Below, piece after piece: positions 35,415 to 43,527 of a stretch of 64,000 nt of DNA. The notes below the pieces were generated by a model. The model searched no databases, was not told where the DNA came from, and worked only from the letters and a program-made list of their open reading frames with translations. The DNA comes from Planctomycetota bacterium (GTDB taxonomy: Bacteria > Planctomycetota > Planctomycetia > Gemmatales > Gemmataceae): the NCBI GenBank assembly GCA_021781415.1, contig JAJXWW010000144.1, positions 1 to 64,000 on the forward strand, given 5' to 3'. A program made the translations under genes and the position numbers. Numbering within the stretch: position 1 is the stretch's first letter; every line of letters begins with the position of its first letter.

Positions 35415-37697
35415 TCACCACGCTCTACCGCAGAACCAGGCCAACACCGTCTCGCCCAGAACGAAGACGAACAATGCCGTCAATAGCCACATGGTCCATT
35501 CGCTTTTCATCCGCGCGCCGTCGCCGAATAGCCCGCTGTCATCGCCGGCGCTCCAGTGGGCAACCTTGGCTCCCGTGAGCGCGTCGATCTCTTCGGGCCG
35601 CAACGGTTGCAGTTGTTCGCTATCGCGCACGTCGGGAGTGACGGCGAACGGCACGCCATCCGGCTCGTCGAGGATTCGTTCGCCATCGGGTTCCTCGGCT
35701 CCGGGCTGCGCGGCTCGATTGGCAGCCACGATGCGATAGATTCCGGCCTTCGCCGTGTCCTCGGCCGTCACGAGGGGCCGACCGGCCACCGTTTCCGGAT
35801 AGCCCAGTCGCACCGACTCGCCGTCGGGACGCACGAGGTCGTAGGCCGCCGTCGTGCCGGCTTTAGGCGCTTGCCATTGCAACGGTTCGCCGGCGATGCG
35901 ATTGTGCGCCTCCGGCTGCCCCTGCAACAAATAATTGAGCGACATCTGTACGAACGGCACGAACGGCGGCGCGATGAACCAATCGGTCCATTGGGGATCG
36001 CTCATGGAGGTTGTGACGAACATCACCTCGCCCTCGCCGGGCCGCTTGCGCCCGACGACGGCCGGCATCCCGTTGCCATAGCGCAACAGCACGCGGGTCT
36101 CGTCGAGCGAATCGGTGCCTTGCGGCTGTTTTTCCAACTCGACGATGCGGCGGACTTCAATGCGATCGACCCCGGCGTAGCCTTCCTCCTCGCGGAATTT
36201 GGCGAAAGGATTCGTCTCGGCGCTCTGGCGGTCCAGCGTCCACGGTTTGTCGCCGGGCGAATGAGACACTTTGGCGATCTTCATGGGTAGCAATCTTCGT
36301 TGCTCGAACAGCAGACGATTGTAAGCCTCCGGCTCGACGTTCCCGCCGGAGAAGATCATCAGCCCGTGGCCATCGCGGACGAAGGAGGCGAGGCTCTTGA
36401 CGAACTCCGGCGCGAGGCTGCCGCCCTCGTTCTTGCCGTTGGCCTCCAGTCGCACATTGACCAGGATGCACAGATCTTTGTTGACGAGCGAACGCGGCGT
36501 GGCTCGCGCCGCCGATGTGACTTGCGCGGGTAGATTCAAAGCGTGCTGGAGGAAAAAGCTACCGGCATTGCGTGGCTCAAGGTCATTGGGCGCGCCATCG
36601 ACGACTAAGATGCCGACGCGGTCGTGAACGACGATCACTTCGTCGAAACGGTTGTCGCCGTCGAGATCGTCCGCTTTCAGTCGCGCCGTGAGGATACGGC
36701 GGCCAGCGCGGTCGAGCATTCCGGTCAGCAGGACGGCGCGCGTCTCTCCCGGCTTGAGTTCTTCGAGAAGGCGGGTATCGCTCTCGGCCGTTTTGCCGTC
36801 TACTTCGAGGCTAACGCTCAGGTTTCGCAGAGCGTTCGCCGAGGTGTTGCGCACCAAGACGGCGAAGTCGGCGCGTTCGCCGGTGCGCAGGCTGCTCTGC
36901 GGCGTGATGCCGACGATGGCGGCGTTATCGGGGGTTCGCTGAGCGCAATGCACGAGATGAATGCGAGCGGTGCCTTGCAACTCTTTGAGCTTTTCGGAGA
37001 GCGACGAGGCTTGGGCTTCCCAGCCGCGCCGCTGCATGTCGCCGAACAGATACAGCTCCTTGTTCGGCGATTGGCCGCGCCGCAGCGTCGCCGCCGCTTC
37101 GCCGATGCCGGGCAATAGATCGCTGCCTTGTTGAGAGAGTTCCATCTCAGCGACAATTTTCCGCGCTTGGTCCAGGTGCGACGGCGTTTGTGGCCCCACG
37201 AGCGCGGCGCGGTCGGAGACGGCGATCACCTGCGCGGTCGAATGCGGCGGCAAACTCGTCAGCACGGCCAACGCCGCCGCCTTGGCTCGGTCGATTCGCC
37301 GAACCGTGCCGTCTCCGGCGGCAAACTCTTTGAGCGCGGAAAGGTACACGTCGCTGCCTGGTTCGATCGGCGCGACTCCATCGCGCGCCCCCATGCTCAG
37401 CGAATTGTCGATCAATAAGACCGCATCGACCGCGTCGCCCTGTCCTCCGCCGCGCGCCGCCGTCGTCGAAGGCCGCGCCAGGGCCAGGGCCAACAGAGCG
37501 AGGACCGCGACGCGCAGGACGAGCAACAGCAATTCTTGGAAACGCAGTCGCCGACTCGTTTGTTCGATGCTGTCGAGCAGAAACTTCATCGCCGCCCACG
37601 GCACGGTGCGATAGCGGCTGCGATAGAAGAAATGCAGCGCGATCGGGATGCCGCAAGCCGCCAAACCGCCGAGCAGATAAGGTGCGAGGAACGACAT
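35415..37697 (-). CDS. BatA-like protein with N-terminal BatA and VWA domains
   Basis: A 760-residue membrane protein. ATG 37697 (MSFLAPYLLGGLAACGIPIALHFF) opens the BatA N-terminal helix; a second helix (LLLVLRVAVLALLALALARP) is near 60. A VWA domain follows with MIDAS motif LLIDNSLSMG at about 95. A large periplasmic region and a final membrane helix end the chain. It is 14 bp after the DUF58 gene, in the MoxR-DUF58-BatA order seen in aerotolerance-type operons. Work in other bacteria links this order to envelope stress or protein maturation; the exact job here is unknown. Confidence 0.9.
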   Translation of the reverse strand: MSFLAPYLLGGLAACGIPIALHFFYRSRYRTVPWAAMKFLLDSIEQTSRRLRFQELLLLVLRVAVLALLALALARPSTTAARGGGQGDAVDAVLLIDNSLSMGARDGVAPIEPGSDVYLSALKEFAAGDGTVRRIDRAKAAALAVLTSLPPHSTAQVIAVSDRAALVGPQTPSHLDQARKIVAEMELSQQGSDLLPGIGEAAATLRRGQSPNKELYLFGDMQRRGWEAQASSLSEKLKELQGTARIHLVHCAQRTPDNAAIVGITPQSSLRTGERADFAVLVRNTSANALRNLSVSLEVDGKTAESDTRLLEELKPGETRAVLLTGMLDRAGRRILTARLKADDLDGDNRFDEVIVVHDRVGILVVDGAPNDLEPRNAGSFFLQHALNLPAQVTSAARATPRSLVNKDLCILVNVRLEANGKNEGGSLAPEFVKSLASFVRDGHGLMIFSGGNVEPEAYNRLLFEQRRLLPMKIAKVSHSPGDKPWTLDRQSAETNPFAKFREEEGYAGVDRIEVRRIVELEKQPQGTDSLDETRVLLRYGNGMPAVVGRKRPGEGEVMFVTTSMSDPQWTDWFIAPPFVPFVQMSLNYLLQGQPEAHNRIAGEPLQWQAPKAGTTAAYDLVRPDGESVRLGYPETVAGRPLVTAEDTAKAGIYRIVAANRAAQPGAEEPDGERILDEPDGVPFAVTPDVRDSEQLQPLRPEEIDALTGAKVAHWSAGDDSGLFGDGARMKSEWTMWLLTALFVFVLGETVLAWFCGRAW

Positions 37698-37711
37698 AGA
37701 AGCCCCGAAAA

Positions 37712-38596
37712 TCACGGTCCCTGTAAACGCCGAGCCAAATACTCCGTCAACGTCTGCGCCAGCGGGCGCGACGTGTCCATCAACGCATAATCGCAGCGAT
37801 TCGCCCGACAACCAGCCGTCAGCTCGTCCAAATAGCGTTGCACCGCCCGCAGGTACGTCGGTCGAATCAAATGGGGGCGGGTCAGAACGTGCATGCGTTC
37901 CTCCATCGCGTCGAACTTCGTCATGCCCTCGAAGGGGAAGCCGATCTCATCGGGATGGAGAACGTGAAAGACGGTGACTTCGTGTCCCTGAAAGCGCAGG
38001 TGTTGCAGCGCGTTCATCAGGCTGGGCACATCGTCGAAGCAATCGGAGATCAGAAACACCAGGCCGCGCCGCCGGGCTTGCTGGGCCAGATCGTGCAACA
38101 GCGGGGCGATGGCCGTCTTCTCGCGCGGTTCGGCGCTTTCCAGCTGTTGCAAGATCGTCTGCATGTGGCCCGGTTGGCTGCTCGGAGGAAGACGGAAGCG
38201 CCAGGCCGAATCGAAGATGCCCAGGCTGACGCTGTCGCGTTGATGGATAATCACATAAGCCAGTGTTGCCGCGATCAGCTTGGCGTATTCCAGTTTGTTC
38301 GTCCCTCCCTCGCCGTAGAGCATCGAGCGGCTGGCATCGACGACGACGTGGCCGATAAAATTCGTCTCCTGTTCGTACTGCTTGATGGTGTAGCGCTCGG
38401 AGCGGCCGTAGCTCTTCCAGTCGATGTGGCGGATGTCGTCGCCGGGAACGTACTCGCGGTGCTGCACGAACTCGACGGAAAAGCCGCGATAGGGACTTTT
38501 GTGATCGCCGATGCGCAATCCCTCGACGACGCCGCGCGCCTTGAGTCCCAAGGCTTGGGCGCGAGCGACAACATCGGCTGGTAAGGTTTGTGTCAT
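37712..38596 (-). CDS. DUF58 domain protein
   Basis: A 294-residue soluble protein of the DUF58 family (PF01882), related to VWA domains. The signature GDDIRHIDWKSYGRSERY, then IKQYEQETNF, lies near 50-80, and VVDASRSMLYGEGG near 90 provides a MIDAS-like site. DUF58 proteins almost always accompany MoxR ATPases, and here the MoxR gene precedes by 45 bp and BatA follows by 14 bp. It is thought to act as the adaptor of the MoxR chaperone. Confidence 0.95.
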   Translation of the reverse strand: MTQTLPADVVARAQALGLKARGVVEGLRIGDHKSPYRGFSVEFVQHREYVPGDDIRHIDWKSYGRSERYTIKQYEQETNFIGHVVVDASRSMLYGEGGTNKLEYAKLIAATLAYVIIHQRDSVSLGIFDSAWRFRLPPSSQPGHMQTILQQLESAEPREKTAIAPLLHDLAQQARRRGLVFLISDCFDDVPSLMNALQHLRFQGHEVTVFHVLHPDEIGFPFEGMTKFDAMEERMHVLTRPHLIRPTYLRAVQRYLDELTAGCRANRCDYALMDTSRPLAQTLTEYLARRLQGP

Positions 38597-38641
38597 AACG
38601 AAGAACCCATAGACACCGCCTCCGCGGTGAATCCTTTTGTC

Positions 38642-39661
38642 TTACGCGGCCTGGTTCTTGGGGATGGCTTGCAACAGGCGTTGGATCACGTCGTCCACGC
38701 TGATGCCTTCGCTCTGGGCGGTGAAGTTGGGGATGAGGCGATGGCGGAGGATCGGCGGAGCGACGGCGGCCACGTCGGCGGCGGAGACGTGAACGTTGCC
38801 GTTCAGGATGGCATGCGCTTTGGCGGCGAGGATCAGGTTCATGCTGGCGCGCGGGCCGGCTCCCCACGTCAACCATTTGTTCACGAAGTCCGCCGCTTCC
38901 GGCGTGTTGGGGCGGGTCATGCGCGTCAGACGCTTGGCGTAAGCGAACACGTGGTCGGCCACCGGAACCCGGCGGACGACGTGCTGCAAGCGCAGAATAT
39001 CGTCGCCGTGCAGGATCTTGCCGATGGAGAAGGACACATCCGACGTGCCTTGCCGCATGATCCGTTCCTCTTCCGCGTCGCTGGGATAATCGACTTTGAT
39101 GAGGAACAAGAAGCGGTCGAGCTGGGCTTCGGGCAGGGGATAGGTTCCCTCTTGTTCGATGGGGTTCTGCGTGGCCAAGACGAAGAACGGATCTTTCATG
39201 GGATAATCGCTGCCGCCAATGGAGACTTTGCGCTCTTGCATGGCTTCGAGGAGCGCGGCTTGGGTTTTCGGCGGCGTGCGGTTGATCTCGTCGGCGAGCA
39301 GGATGTTGGCGAATACGGGTCCGGGTAAGAACTTGAACATACGTTGCTTGCTGACCGGATCGTCTTGAATGACCTCGGTTCCGGTGATGTCCGACGGCAT
39401 GAGATCGGGGGTGAACTGAATGCGTTTGAAACTCATGTCGAGCGCTTGGGCCAACGTGCTGACCATGAGCGTCTTGGCCAAACCGGGCACGCCCATGAGC
39501 AGGGCGTGGCCGCGACAAAAGATCGCCGTAAGTAGCTGATCGAGAACGTGTTCCTGGCCGACGATGATCTTGCCGATCTCCTGGCGGAGTTGGCGGTGGG
39601 CGGATCGCAGTTGCTCGACGGCTTGGACATCGGCGGCGGAGACGGGTTCAGCAGTATTCAT
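38642..39661 (-). CDS. MoxR AAA+ ATPase
   Basis: A 339-residue AAA+ ATPase of the MoxR family. ATG 39661 is chosen because the region upstream in the same frame is arginine-rich non-conserved sequence. Walker A GVPGLAKT is at about 56-63, Walker B ILLADEINRTPPKTQ near 117, sensor 1 LATQNPIEQEGTYPLPEAQLD near 155 (quoted here only in part: ATQNPIEQEGTYPL). It is the first gene of the MoxR-DUF58-BatA cluster and would power assembly or maturation of a target in the envelope. Confidence 0.95.
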   Translation of the reverse strand: MNTAEPVSAADVQAVEQLRSAHRQLRQEIGKIIVGQEHVLDQLLTAIFCRGHALLMGVPGLAKTLMVSTLAQALDMSFKRIQFTPDLMPSDITGTEVIQDDPVSKQRMFKFLPGPVFANILLADEINRTPPKTQAALLEAMQERKVSIGGSDYPMKDPFFVLATQNPIEQEGTYPLPEAQLDRFLFLIKVDYPSDAEEERIMRQGTSDVSFSIGKILHGDDILRLQHVVRRVPVADHVFAYAKRLTRMTRPNTPEAADFVNKWLTWGAGPRASMNLILAAKAHAILNGNVHVSAADVAAVAPPILRHRLIPNFTAQSEGISVDDVIQRLLQAIPKNQAA

Positions 39662-40347
39662 TTCTGGATGCTCACTCGGTTGGTCGGACACACTCGCGCG
39701 CCGGACAGACGACGACCGGCGGGAGAATCTCACACGGGACCGCGTTCGGGAGAGGCCGAGGCGGGCCTAACGAGGCAGGCGGCTCACGGAGGGCAGGAGC
39801 AGAGGCGGATATGATTCTAACGGCCCCATGGGCGCAATGCAAGCAGCAAAGCGAACGGTTTCGCGTTTTTGCGAAGACAGGCCAACGTCGAGAAATCGTA
39901 GGGTTCCCCTGTCTTGGATCACCAAGATTGAACCGTATCCGTCCATGGATTCGCTCGCCTCGCCGCGGTCGTCGAACAATGGAACGAAAAGGGTCGAAGA
40001 ACCGTGCTGCGTAGCCTGGGTAGGTGTTCGTCTGATACTTGGGTGGGAACGGGGATTTGCCCTAGCCCAGATTGCGCACCCCAGAGAACGCAGTGAGCGC
40101 AGAGGAAGCAGGAGAAATGAGTTAAGTACACCGGCCTCGCATGTCGCCGGGGCAAGCTCGTTCGACCCTCCATGAGTTTAAACTCTTGAGATTCAATCTC
40201 CGTGATCTCCGCGGTGACATATTCGGGCTAGACATTCGCTCGGTTCTCATGGTATGCCGCGCGGACGCAGAGATTTTCATAAGTCGCTCAGCGCCGCCAG
40301 GCGAGGCGTCTTCCGGGATTCGACGTTCAAAGGATCTCAGGGCGGTA
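39662..40347. other. divergent intergenic region with interspersed repeat
   Basis: About 690 bp between the MoxR gene and the M1-barrel gene. No gene is supported; the left half shows no recognisable feature and the right part contains repeat copy 2 (40061-40231). Confidence 0.6.
40061..40231. repeat. interspersed repeat, copy 2
   Basis: Matches 12990-13173 from GCCCAGATTGCGC to the ATTCGGG end, with small insertions and deletions. It also carries the GAGTTTAAACTCTTGAGA palindromic stretch. Both copies lie just upstream of genes for exported proteins, in either orientation relative to the gene. Confidence 0.75.
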
Positions 40348-43300
40348 ATGGATCGAGCTACGATTAACTCGCAATTCCGCCTCGCGCTCGGCGCGTTGGC
40401 GTTGATTTTGACCGCCGACCCAACGCGGGCCGGCGCGCCGTCTCCCTTGCCGCGCTATTTCCTCGATATCCAACTCGACACCGATGCCCACCTTGCCGTC
40501 GTGCGCCAACGCATCGTCTGGACCAATTGCCAAGCGCGACCGGCCAACGAACTGATCTTCAACGCCCATAGCCACTATCAGCTGCCCGATAAAGATGTGG
40601 GCATGACCTCCAAGATTTTCGAGATCTTGCGGATGATGCCCAGCGAATCGCTCGACTTCGAGGGCCACGCCCTAGATGTCCGCAAAGTGCGTTTGATGAA
40701 GATAGAACGCGAGGAGAATACGGAAGAATTGGGGCAACCGCGCAAAGTGGAGGGGACGGCGAGCGGGGGTAAAACTCAGGGGGCTGACGCCCCCCGCTCG
40801 GCGGAGAAGACTCAGGGGGCCGACGCCCCCCGCTCGCCGGACGGCGACCGTTTGCCGTTTCACTACGACGAGAAGAACGACTCGGCGTTGGTCGTCCCTC
40901 TGCCGCGTCCGCTGCTTGAGGGCGAGACGGTTACGGTCGATCTGGACTTCGTCTTGAAGCTACCGGAGAAGTACGGACGCTGGGGACACTGGCGTGGCAT
41001 CACCTATCTCACGAACTGGCTGCCGGTGTTGGCGGTGTACAATCAAACTGGGTGGCAGCCGACGCCTTACGTTTGCTGGCATCAGCCGTTCTACAACGAA
41101 GCCGGACTGTACACGGCGCGGCTGACGCTGCCGTGCCAGCAAAAAGTCGCCTGCTCGGCGGCGGTGTTGACCGATACCTCGTTGGCCAACGGTCGGCGAC
41201 AAATCGACTTCGCCCCCTTTTACGCGCGCGACTTCTCGCTCGTTTGCAGCGACCGCTTCCACGAATACACCGGCAAGTGCGGCGATATTACCGTCCGCTG
41301 CTTGGCCGATCCGAAACACGAACACCACGCGCGCTTCGCCGTCGAAAGCGCCCGCGAGGCGTTGGCGACCTATAGCCGTTGGTTCGGTCCCTATCCCTAT
41401 CGACATTTTACCGTCGTCGAGTCGTATTTCGGTTGGAACAGCAACGAATGCTCCGGTCTCATTCTGATCGACTCGCGCATCCTCGGCATGCCCAAATTGG
41501 CCAAGGGGTTCGTCGATTATCTGGTGGCCCAGGCAACCTGCCATCAATGGTGGTACAACGTGGTCGGCACGCACGGCTACAGTGAAACGTGGATGGACGA
41601 AGGGGTGGCCACCTATTTCGCCTACCGCTTGATGAAGACGAAATACGGAGCCAACGATCCGCTCGTCAACTACCCTACGGGTCTGAAATGGCTGCCCAAC
41701 GTCCGCCGCAGCGACTACCGCTACTTCAACCTGTACGGAACCATCGCACGCGCCGAGTTGCAGCCGACCGTGCAAGACATTCCCAAGTTTGGACACATCG
41801 TCGATCTTTATAGTATGTGTTACGAGCGCGGCAGCAAAATCATCGGCATGATCGAACACGATCTGGGCGAGAAAGCCTTTTTCGAATTCATGCGCTTCGT
41901 CTACGAGCGGCACGCCTGGGGCATCCTCCGAGTGGCCGATTTTCAGCGCGATCTCGAGCAGTTCACGCACAAATCGTGGCAGACCTTTTTCGATCGTTGG
42001 GTCTACGGTGCCGGAGTCAGCGATTGGTGCGTCGAAGACGTGAAAATCCAATCGACGGCGTCGGGCCGACCGCATCTGCCCCGCATGGTATACGGCCGCT
42101 ATAGCTCGGCGATGAAGAGTTGGTGCCGACCCAAAAATCCCTGTAAGGTCACGGTGATCGTCAAGCAAAAGGCCGACTACAACGATCCGACCGTGCTGGG
42201 CATTCGGCTGGACGACGGCGAGGGCTATCAAATCCGCATCCCCATCGTGCCGGAGACGGGTCTAGTCGAGACCACCGATCCGCCCGGCCGCGTCGAGACC
42301 CTGGCCGACAATCGCGTCCGAATCGAAGTCGAACTACCGACTTGGCCGACGCAAATCACCGTCGATCCCGATGAGATTCTCGTCGATCGCAATCCGGCGA
42401 ACAACTATTGGAAGCCGAGCTTTCGCGTCCGACCCACGCCGCTGTACACCTTCCTCGACGAGACGGATCTGACCAACGCCTACGACCGTTGGAATCTCAT
42501 TTTCGGGCCGTGGATCTTCGCGCCGACTTACGATAATCCGTGGTTCACGCGCTCGACGCGCTTCGGAGTGCGCGGGGGGGGCTATCGCACGGCGTCTTTC
42601 GAGGGCGGCGGGTACGCCGCCTATCGCACCGACTACCGCGATTTCGTCGAAGGGGTCGATGCCATTTTCGATCATTGGCCCTTCCCGCACACCGAGGCCG
42701 GCTTCGTCTTCGAACGCCGATTTGCCGGCACGCTCAAGGGGGAAGACAACGCCAACATCGGCGTCGCCTACGCCCGCTATGTGATCGACTATGGCGATAG
42801 CCTTTATCTGCCACCCTTCCAATATGCCGAGGTGTTCACGACCATTCAGGACGATTTGCTGCCCTTGGCGCGAGATACGGTGCCCGGCGCGGAGCGCTTT
42901 CGCCATCAAGGCATGGGCGGTGCCCACTATCACATCAACTATCTGACGCCGTACTGGAATCCCGAAGGCGGCTTCTCGGCGGACGTCAGCTACGCCGGCG
43001 GACTCGTGCTGCCGGGCGAAGCGCAAACCATCGACGGCTCGCATCAATTTCTCGGACAGGCGACCTACGTGCAAGCCATGCCGGACGGTCTGGGGTGGTT
43101 TTCCGACACCGTGTTCGCCTTTCGCGCCTACGGGGCCTTTGGCCTGCCCAACAACGTGCAGTATTTTGCGATGGGGGGCAGTTCGTTATTCCGCGGCTAC
43201 GATTTGGCTCAACGTCAGGGCAATGCCCTTTGGGTGGGCAGCGTGGAATGGCGATTCCCGGTGGCGCGGGAGCTGAATTGGGCCTTCTTCGACCGCGCGT

Positions 43301-43527
43301 TTAACTTGCGCGGCATCTATGCGGCGGCGTTCTGCGACGTGGGCAACGTCTACTTGCGCGGTCAAACCGTGGGTAACGGCGTCGCCGAGGCCGTGGGCGC
43401 GGGCTTGCGACTCGATGTCGCCTGGTTCACTTTCGTCGAACGCACCATCTTCCGCCTCGACGCTGCCAAAACCGTCAACAGCACCGCCCCCATGCAAATC
43501 TGGGCGGGAATCGAGCATCCATTTTGA
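40348..43527 (+). CDS. inactive M1-peptidase-like domain fused to an Omp85-type beta barrel
   Basis: A 1059-residue exported protein with signal peptide (FRLALGALALILTADP). Residues about 30-600 follow the M1 aminopeptidase layout. The zinc motif HExxH is QATCH at 395-399, with the third ligand Glu 418 (WMDEGVA) kept at the exact x18 spacing, so one zinc ligand and the catalytic Glu are lost. From about 700 the protein becomes an outer-membrane barrel with GGSSLFRGYDLA (the Omp85 L6-loop R-G-Y/F motif) and a terminal phenylalanine. Residues 136-168 contain two in-frame copies of a palindromic repeat. ATG 40348 has AGGGCGG upstream. Confidence 0.85.
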   Translation: MDRATINSQFRLALGALALILTADPTRAGAPSPLPRYFLDIQLDTDAHLAVVRQRIVWTNCQARPANELIFNAHSHYQLPDKDVGMTSKIFEILRMMPSESLDFEGHALDVRKVRLMKIEREENTEELGQPRKVEGTASGGKTQGADAPRSAEKTQGADAPRSPDGDRLPFHYDEKNDSALVVPLPRPLLEGETVTVDLDFVLKLPEKYGRWGHWRGITYLTNWLPVLAVYNQTGWQPTPYVCWHQPFYNEAGLYTARLTLPCQQKVACSAAVLTDTSLANGRRQIDFAPFYARDFSLVCSDRFHEYTGKCGDITVRCLADPKHEHHARFAVESAREALATYSRWFGPYPYRHFTVVESYFGWNSNECSGLILIDSRILGMPKLAKGFVDYLVAQATCHQWWYNVVGTHGYSETWMDEGVATYFAYRLMKTKYGANDPLVNYPTGLKWLPNVRRSDYRYFNLYGTIARAELQPTVQDIPKFGHIVDLYSMCYERGSKIIGMIEHDLGEKAFFEFMRFVYERHAWGILRVADFQRDLEQFTHKSWQTFFDRWVYGAGVSDWCVEDVKIQSTASGRPHLPRMVYGRYSSAMKSWCRPKNPCKVTVIVKQKADYNDPTVLGIRLDDGEGYQIRIPIVPETGLVETTDPPGRVETLADNRVRIEVELPTWPTQITVDPDEILVDRNPANNYWKPSFRVRPTPLYTFLDETDLTNAYDRWNLIFGPWIFAPTYDNPWFTRSTRFGVRGGGYRTASFEGGGYAAYRTDYRDFVEGVDAIFDHWPFPHTEAGFVFERRFAGTLKGEDNANIGVAYARYVIDYGDSLYLPPFQYAEVFTTIQDDLLPLARDTVPGAERFRHQGMGGAHYHINYLTPYWNPEGGFSADVSYAGGLVLPGEAQTIDGSHQFLGQATYVQAMPDGLGWFSDTVFAFRAYGAFGLPNNVQYFAMGGSSLFRGYDLAQRQGNALWVGSVEWRFPVARELNWAFFDRAFNLRGIYAAAFCDVGNVYLRGQTVGNGVAEAVGAGLRLDVAWFTFVERTIFRLDAAKTVNSTAPMQIWAGIEHPF
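40774..40836. repeat. two palindromic repeats inside a coding region, family 3
   Basis: Two 27-bp units (ACTCAGGGGGCTGACGCCCC...; one base apart) at 40774-40800 and 40810-40836. Each codes for T-Q-G-A-D-A-P-R-S. The reverse complement of the same family lies at 48811-48837. Confidence 0.85.

Follow-up and report, generated by a model that had tools for sequence, protein, structure and literature searches.

A predicted, genus-wide M1 pseudo-peptidase fused to an Omp85-type outer-membrane barrel in planctomycetes

Introduction

The closest described relatives of the protein reported here are found among the M1 aminopeptidases (ERAP2, IRAP, PSA, tricorn factor F3, aminopeptidase N and a cold-active aminopeptidase) and among the Omp85 proteins, such as BamA, TamA and the patatin-Omp85 protein PlpD. 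In Omp85 proteins, loop 6, which links strands 11 and 12, carries an RGF/RGY-type motif, and TAF2 is an M1-like protein that is not a peptidase. In M1 enzymes two histidines and a distal glutamate bind zinc, the first glutamate of the HExxH motif acts as the general base, and the glutamate of the GAMEN motif has been proposed to hold the amino terminus of the substrate (PMC10343166). In PlpD, a hydrolase-fold domain lies N-terminal to the Omp85 barrel and has been shown to be periplasmic (PMC11116518). Omp85 proteins without an N-terminal extension ('noNterm') also exist (PMC4104836). A 'Metallo' subfamily, called metalloprotease-Omp85 by Heinz and Lithgow in 2014, is excluded as the family described here, as its domain, PF00149 (PMC4104836), is Metallophos in Pfam. 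Metallopeptidase pseudoenzymes, which keep the peptidase fold, have lost catalysis and take binding or regulatory roles, as the present protein probably does, are a known kind of protein; in a word search, their review (PMC11266112) contained no mention of the M1 family or of TAF2.

Here we analyse a gene in a 64,000-nucleotide stretch of a Gemmataceae genome (contig JAJXWW010000144.1, positions 1 to 64,000; hereafter the window). Its product shares domain I, the thermolysin-like catalytic domain and the Ig-like domain with the M1 aminopeptidases, in sequence and in fold, and keeps their third zinc ligand, catalytic tyrosine and exopeptidase glutamate. Unlike them, it has lost the H and the E of HExxH, reads NSNEC instead of GAMEN, and carries a beta barrel, with helical domain IV not seen. 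With BamA and TamA it shares 16 strands, the RGY/F motif between strands 11 and 12 and a C-terminal Phe, but sequence similarity is weak and a peptidase unit takes the place of a recognised POTRA domain. PlpD has the same overall order of a hydrolase-fold domain and a barrel, but its hydrolase fold is a different one, it has a POTRA domain, and it has not been described as catalytically dead. A text search of the searchable literature for M1 and Omp85 together returned no description of such a fusion. The M1-Omp85 family is apparently undescribed, and the window's copy appears to be a pseudo-peptidase member of it. We know of no metallopeptidase pseudoenzyme on an outer-membrane barrel.

Results

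Architecture and active site

The features of the gene are collected in Table 1; its start codon matches that of an orthologue (L006). Peptidase_M1 (PF01433) is matched by residues 330-551 (E=1.2e-15; 58.2 bits against a cut-off of 27.7), and a full-length AlphaFold2 (AF2) model built on 83 family sequences (pLDDT 89, pTM 0.87) matches the M1 aminopeptidases ERAP2 and IRAP in Foldseek at E of about 1e-22. The names of the M1 domains were assigned from the order of structural elements in this model. For the C-terminal part, the Omp85 match (PF01103) is sub-threshold (residues 936-1023, E=7.5e-4, 19.5 bits), and the assignment was settled by structure. Sixteen strands are modelled, at 715-724, 738-747, 751-760, 765-775, 782-794, 802-814, 825-835, 851-864, 874-889, 896-910, 922-933, 956-973, 985-1003, 1013-1026, 1031-1042 and 1050-1055, with FRGYD between the strands 922-933 and 956-973; a model of the barrel alone (pLDDT 88) agrees with the full model in having 16 strands, and matches BamA and TamA in a fold search (E 3e-7 to 5e-5). 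No POTRA domain is recognised by Pfam in the protein, and the linker at residues 681-714 is modelled as short helices and one short strand only. One other Omp85 protein of the window's genome lies above the Pfam cut-off.

Table 1. Features of the M1-Omp85 gene in the window (positions on the forward strand of the window)
Feature	Residues	Position	Strand	Basis or remark
Complete gene, predicted M1 pseudo-peptidase fused to Omp85-type barrel	1,059 aa	40348..43527	+	Pfam; orthologues in G146, G218, G217
Signal-peptide-like N-terminus, MDRATINSQFRLALGALALILTADPTRAG	1-29	40348..40434	+	by eye from sequence
M1 domain I, beta-sandwich	30-320	40435..41307	+	AF2 secondary structure
Interspersed repeat found genome-wide, two copies in frame, domain I loop	~141-164	40770..40839	+	low pLDDT
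M1 catalytic domain, predicted inactive	321-557	41308..42018	+	PF01433; fold match ERAP2/IRAP
Exopeptidase (GAMEN-equivalent) motif NSNEC	364-368	41437..41451	+	family form NGNEC; E367 kept, G365 -> S
QATCH replacing HExxH, codons CAG GCA ACC TGC CAT	395-399	41530..41544	+	
Third zinc ligand, kept, 18 residues after H399	E418	41599..41601	+	
Catalytic tyrosine, kept; adjoining D493 -> E	Y492	41821..41823	+	
Ig-like beta domain as M1 domain III	558-680	42019..42387	+	AF2 secondary structure
16-strand Omp85-type beta barrel, C-terminal Phe	715-1059	42490..43524	+	AF2 model; fold match
FRGYD motif, loop between strands 11 and 12 (Omp85 loop-6 position)	948-952	43189..43203	+	

QATCH corresponds to Q395-A396-T397-C398-H399 and is followed by exactly 18 residues and then E418. 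The HExxH(x18)E signature of active M1 aminopeptidases is absent, and neither H395 nor E396 is present in any of the four orthologous proteins that read QA at these positions (QA proteins). All four retain H399, E418, Y492 and E367, the last within NSNEC, for which the HExxH relatives read NGNEC and not GAMEN. Domain I holds the motif WHQPFYNE (244-251), and the window's copy retains its conserved H245, Q246, P247 and E251; judging by the corresponding segment in other M1 enzymes, we take Q246 and E251 to be residues that hold the N-terminus of a substrate. When sequences were compared, no His or Cys of the QA clade was found at a position that would obviously substitute for H395. New His or Cys residues are fixed at a few positions in the clade, for example H409 and C491, both close to the site along the chain. 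None of these candidates is convincing as an alternative zinc ligand, and three HExxH proteins of the family carry H409 as well. Having lost the general base and one zinc ligand, the protein is probably a catalytically inactive pseudo-peptidase.

The preliminary description of this DNA had read QATCH as a replacement of HExxH with the third ligand at an unchanged spacing, had proposed that the peptidase fold is kept while catalysis and one zinc ligand are gone, and had recognised a fused Omp85-like barrel with FRGYD. The motif, the kept fold, the loss of the general base and of one zinc ligand, and the fused barrel are borne out by the residues just listed, by the PF01433 and ERAP2/IRAP matches, and by the 16-strand model with its BamA and TamA matches.

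The domain I repeat (about 30 bases, of the AAACTCAGGGGGCTGACGCCCCCCGCTC type) encodes KTQGADAPRS twice, and has 69 matches in the genome, those of the window included, many of them as inverted pairs.

Family survey

Relatives of the window's protein were found at E<=1e-10 in 93 of the 199 sampled genomes of the class, some of them merely weak M1 matches, and at E<=1e-30 in 83 of the 95 genomes of the window's family. A phylum-wide search at E<=1e-30 returned no member outside the class Planctomycetia among the sampled genomes, and the named records of relatives belong mostly to Gemmataceae and other Planctomycetota. Two records titled Bacteroidales and Candidatus Kuenenia (L041 and L058) are apparently planctomycete M1-Omp85 contigs, probably from mislabelled bins; a score shared with a protein of G154 is among the evidence for this. 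A contig titled Lokiarchaeota (L068, 4398-6374) encodes a 659-aa M1 protein with the family signature HETCHQWWYN and no recognised barrel.

Six catalytic positions (H, E, H, E, exopeptidase E and Y) were scored in 109 non-redundant related proteins from Planctomycetia. The intact pattern HEHEEY is present in 102 of them and QAHEEY in four, with HEHEQY, EQQASA and a partial pattern in one each. The four QAHEEY proteins come from exactly the four genomes of the window's genus (G000, G146, G217 and G218) and are 75-100% identical to the window's protein; each of these genomes also carries a second M1-Omp85 copy, with HExxH intact. A one-off loss, chance, a sequencing error or an error in a metagenome-assembled genome is excluded, because the substitution is common to four genomes. 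QATCH is a fixed, genus-wide pseudo-peptidase state, neither a one-off nor the rule of the family. The preliminary description had reckoned with a one-off loss should most homologues carry HExxH; most of them do, but the loss extends across a genus under purifying selection (see below).

The HEHEQY protein (L078, 547-3525, in G234) has HExxH intact and a Gln in place of the exopeptidase Glu (NQC), which may alter its specificity. A third and weak Peptidase_M1 match (27.8 bits) is found in G000 (L173, 1-2733 of C207), in a 910-aa protein without HExxH whose N-terminal half resembles, by eye, a C45-type acyl hydrolase; it is possibly another disarmed M1 unit.

Old paralogues and a second loss

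In the tree, the QA proteins are monophyletic with full support, and their sister is an HExxH protein of G182 (SH-aLRT 98). Intact copies from the window's genus are placed elsewhere, beside those of G162 and G225, and a topology that unites QA and HE copies of this genus in one clade is rejected (AU p=0.0006), which excludes a recent duplication inside the genus. The two copies, which lie on different contigs, are therefore either old paralogues or the outcome of an acquisition of one copy from a relative, two histories that the tree does not separate.

At least two changes from the intact to the inactive state are required, one in the genus clade and the other in the EQQASA protein (L102, 5219-8194 of C206 in G211), in which no ligand survives, nor the base, the exopeptidase Glu or the Tyr, and in which the barrel columns are intact. 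The two lineages fall in different supported clades, and G211 has an intact M1-Omp85 copy as well. Judged by its residues and its place in the tree, L102 is an independent second dead copy, in a lineage represented by one contig of a fragmented assembly.

Selection

We compared changes at 98 columns, each of them conserved in 95% or more of the family members. Six of them are changed in the QA clade (G365S, H395Q, E396A, D493E, E535D and E613D), four of which belong to the active site as hand-chosen from known M1 motifs (hypergeometric p=0.002), with none of the 22 conserved columns of domain I and none of the 31 of the barrel among them. L102 has changed 15 conserved columns; ten belong to the active site (p=1e-8) and none to the barrel. 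Among QA copies, pairwise dN/dS is 0.06-0.16 overall, 0.03-0.08 for the catalytic domain and 0.04-0.15 for the barrel; among intact copies it is 0.07-0.13 overall and 0.04-0.12 for the catalytic domain. These ratios are approximate, since dS is above 1 in several comparisons. The difference in relative constraint between dead and intact copies is not significant, and we dropped the idea that the dead domain is more constrained than the active one, since the bootstrap interval includes no difference. Because catalytic residues have been lost and the gene is under purifying selection, the QA copy may be classed as a pseudo-peptidase; the pattern of substitution indicates that it is a kept, functional protein.

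Gene surroundings

Divergent from the target gene, on the minus strand (35415-39733), lie genes for a MoxR ATPase, a DUF58 protein and a BatA/VWA protein, an ordinary set. No conserved gene neighbourhood pointing to a ligand or a partner was found around the M1-Omp85 copies. DUF1501 genes occur near both copies and were set aside as evidence for a partner, as this family is widespread in planctomycetes. Promoter and terminator scans gave matches at chance level only.

Discussion

We suggest that the window's gene encodes a pseudo-peptidase with a periplasm-facing role in binding peptides or proteins, its barrel serving as an anchor or conduit, and put the probability of this reading at about one half. 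The ancestor would have been an ordinary HExxH member of the planctomycete M1-Omp85 family. In the ancestor of the genus, changes of E to A and of H to Q would then have removed the general base and the first zinc ligand, respectively, from one of two old paralogues, whose disarmed product would have been retained. The M1 unit, joined through its C-terminal end to the 16-strand barrel and facing the periplasm, would no longer cleave, and may bind the N-termini of peptides or proteins as a receptor, a sequestering protein or a regulator. What favours a binder, we infer, is that the residues that cut are gone and those that may hold a substrate N-terminus (Q246, E251 and E367) are kept together with Y492. 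Selection alone does not indicate binding, given that relative constraint does not differ significantly between the dead and the active domain, and the retention of H399, E418 and Y492, which a pure binder does not obviously need, speaks against it.

These retained residues would be explained if a metal were still bound by H399, E418, Y492 and E367, possibly helped by Q395 or a further residue, and the site performed other chemistry. All four are kept in every QA protein, and new residues such as H409 and C491 have been fixed in the clade; residual metal binding or other chemistry is possible on these grounds. However, the general base is absent from all four QA proteins, and H409 is not specific to the dead site, being found in HExxH members too, and we regard altered catalysis as improbable. 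The main rival of the binding role is that the dead copy is a regulatory or structural subunit of the intact HExxH paralogue in an outer-membrane hetero-oligomer, with no peptide binding of its own. In support of this idea, every genome of the genus that has the dead copy also has an intact paralogue, as has the genome of L102; the dead catalytic domain of the genus is strongly conserved; and PlpD, also an Omp85 protein, forms homodimers (PMC11116518). The two copies lie on different contigs, though, and are old paralogues rather than a recent pair; on balance such a subunit role seems unlikely, if worth serious attention.

Selection might instead act for the barrel, in transport or outer-membrane protein assembly, with the M1 part reduced to a folding or plug domain. 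None of the 31 conserved barrel columns is changed in either dead lineage, which speaks for this, but the QA catalytic domain is constrained about as much as the barrel or more (0.03-0.08 against 0.04-0.15) and the M1 part keeps its substrate-holding residues, and we regard a barrel-only role as improbable. A recent loss of function, in a duplicate on its way to becoming a pseudogene, could be read from the presence of HExxH in most homologues. Against such decay, the frame is open in four genomes, dN/dS is far below 1 in every domain, and synonymous divergence is around or above 1 between the two pairs of QA copies, leaving it scarcely credible.

The preliminary description had proposed a periplasmic or surface peptide receptor, or a translocation gate. 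Peptide binding is plausible, as the residues that may bind an N-terminus are kept, but a surface location finds no support, nor does a gate. An M1 part outside the cell, or guarding a passage through the barrel, could appeal to Omp85 relatives such as TpsB proteins, which translocate proteins (PMC11116518). With an even number of strands, however, the N-terminal unit is expected on the same side as the C-terminus of the barrel, in the periplasm. The patatin domain at the N-terminus of PlpD, which had been regarded as secreted, likewise remains periplasmic (PMC11116518). No POTRA domain and no partner gene were seen either, and we consider an external receptor or a gate very improbable.

The M1-Omp85 family would add another hydrolase-on-Omp85 design beside PlpD. 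Moreover, it offers a natural experiment, in which one cell carries two copies of an outer-membrane enzyme, one apparently active and the other disarmed, and in which a second loss appears to have occurred independently. Such paired copies may allow a non-catalytic role of the M1 domain to be tested directly.
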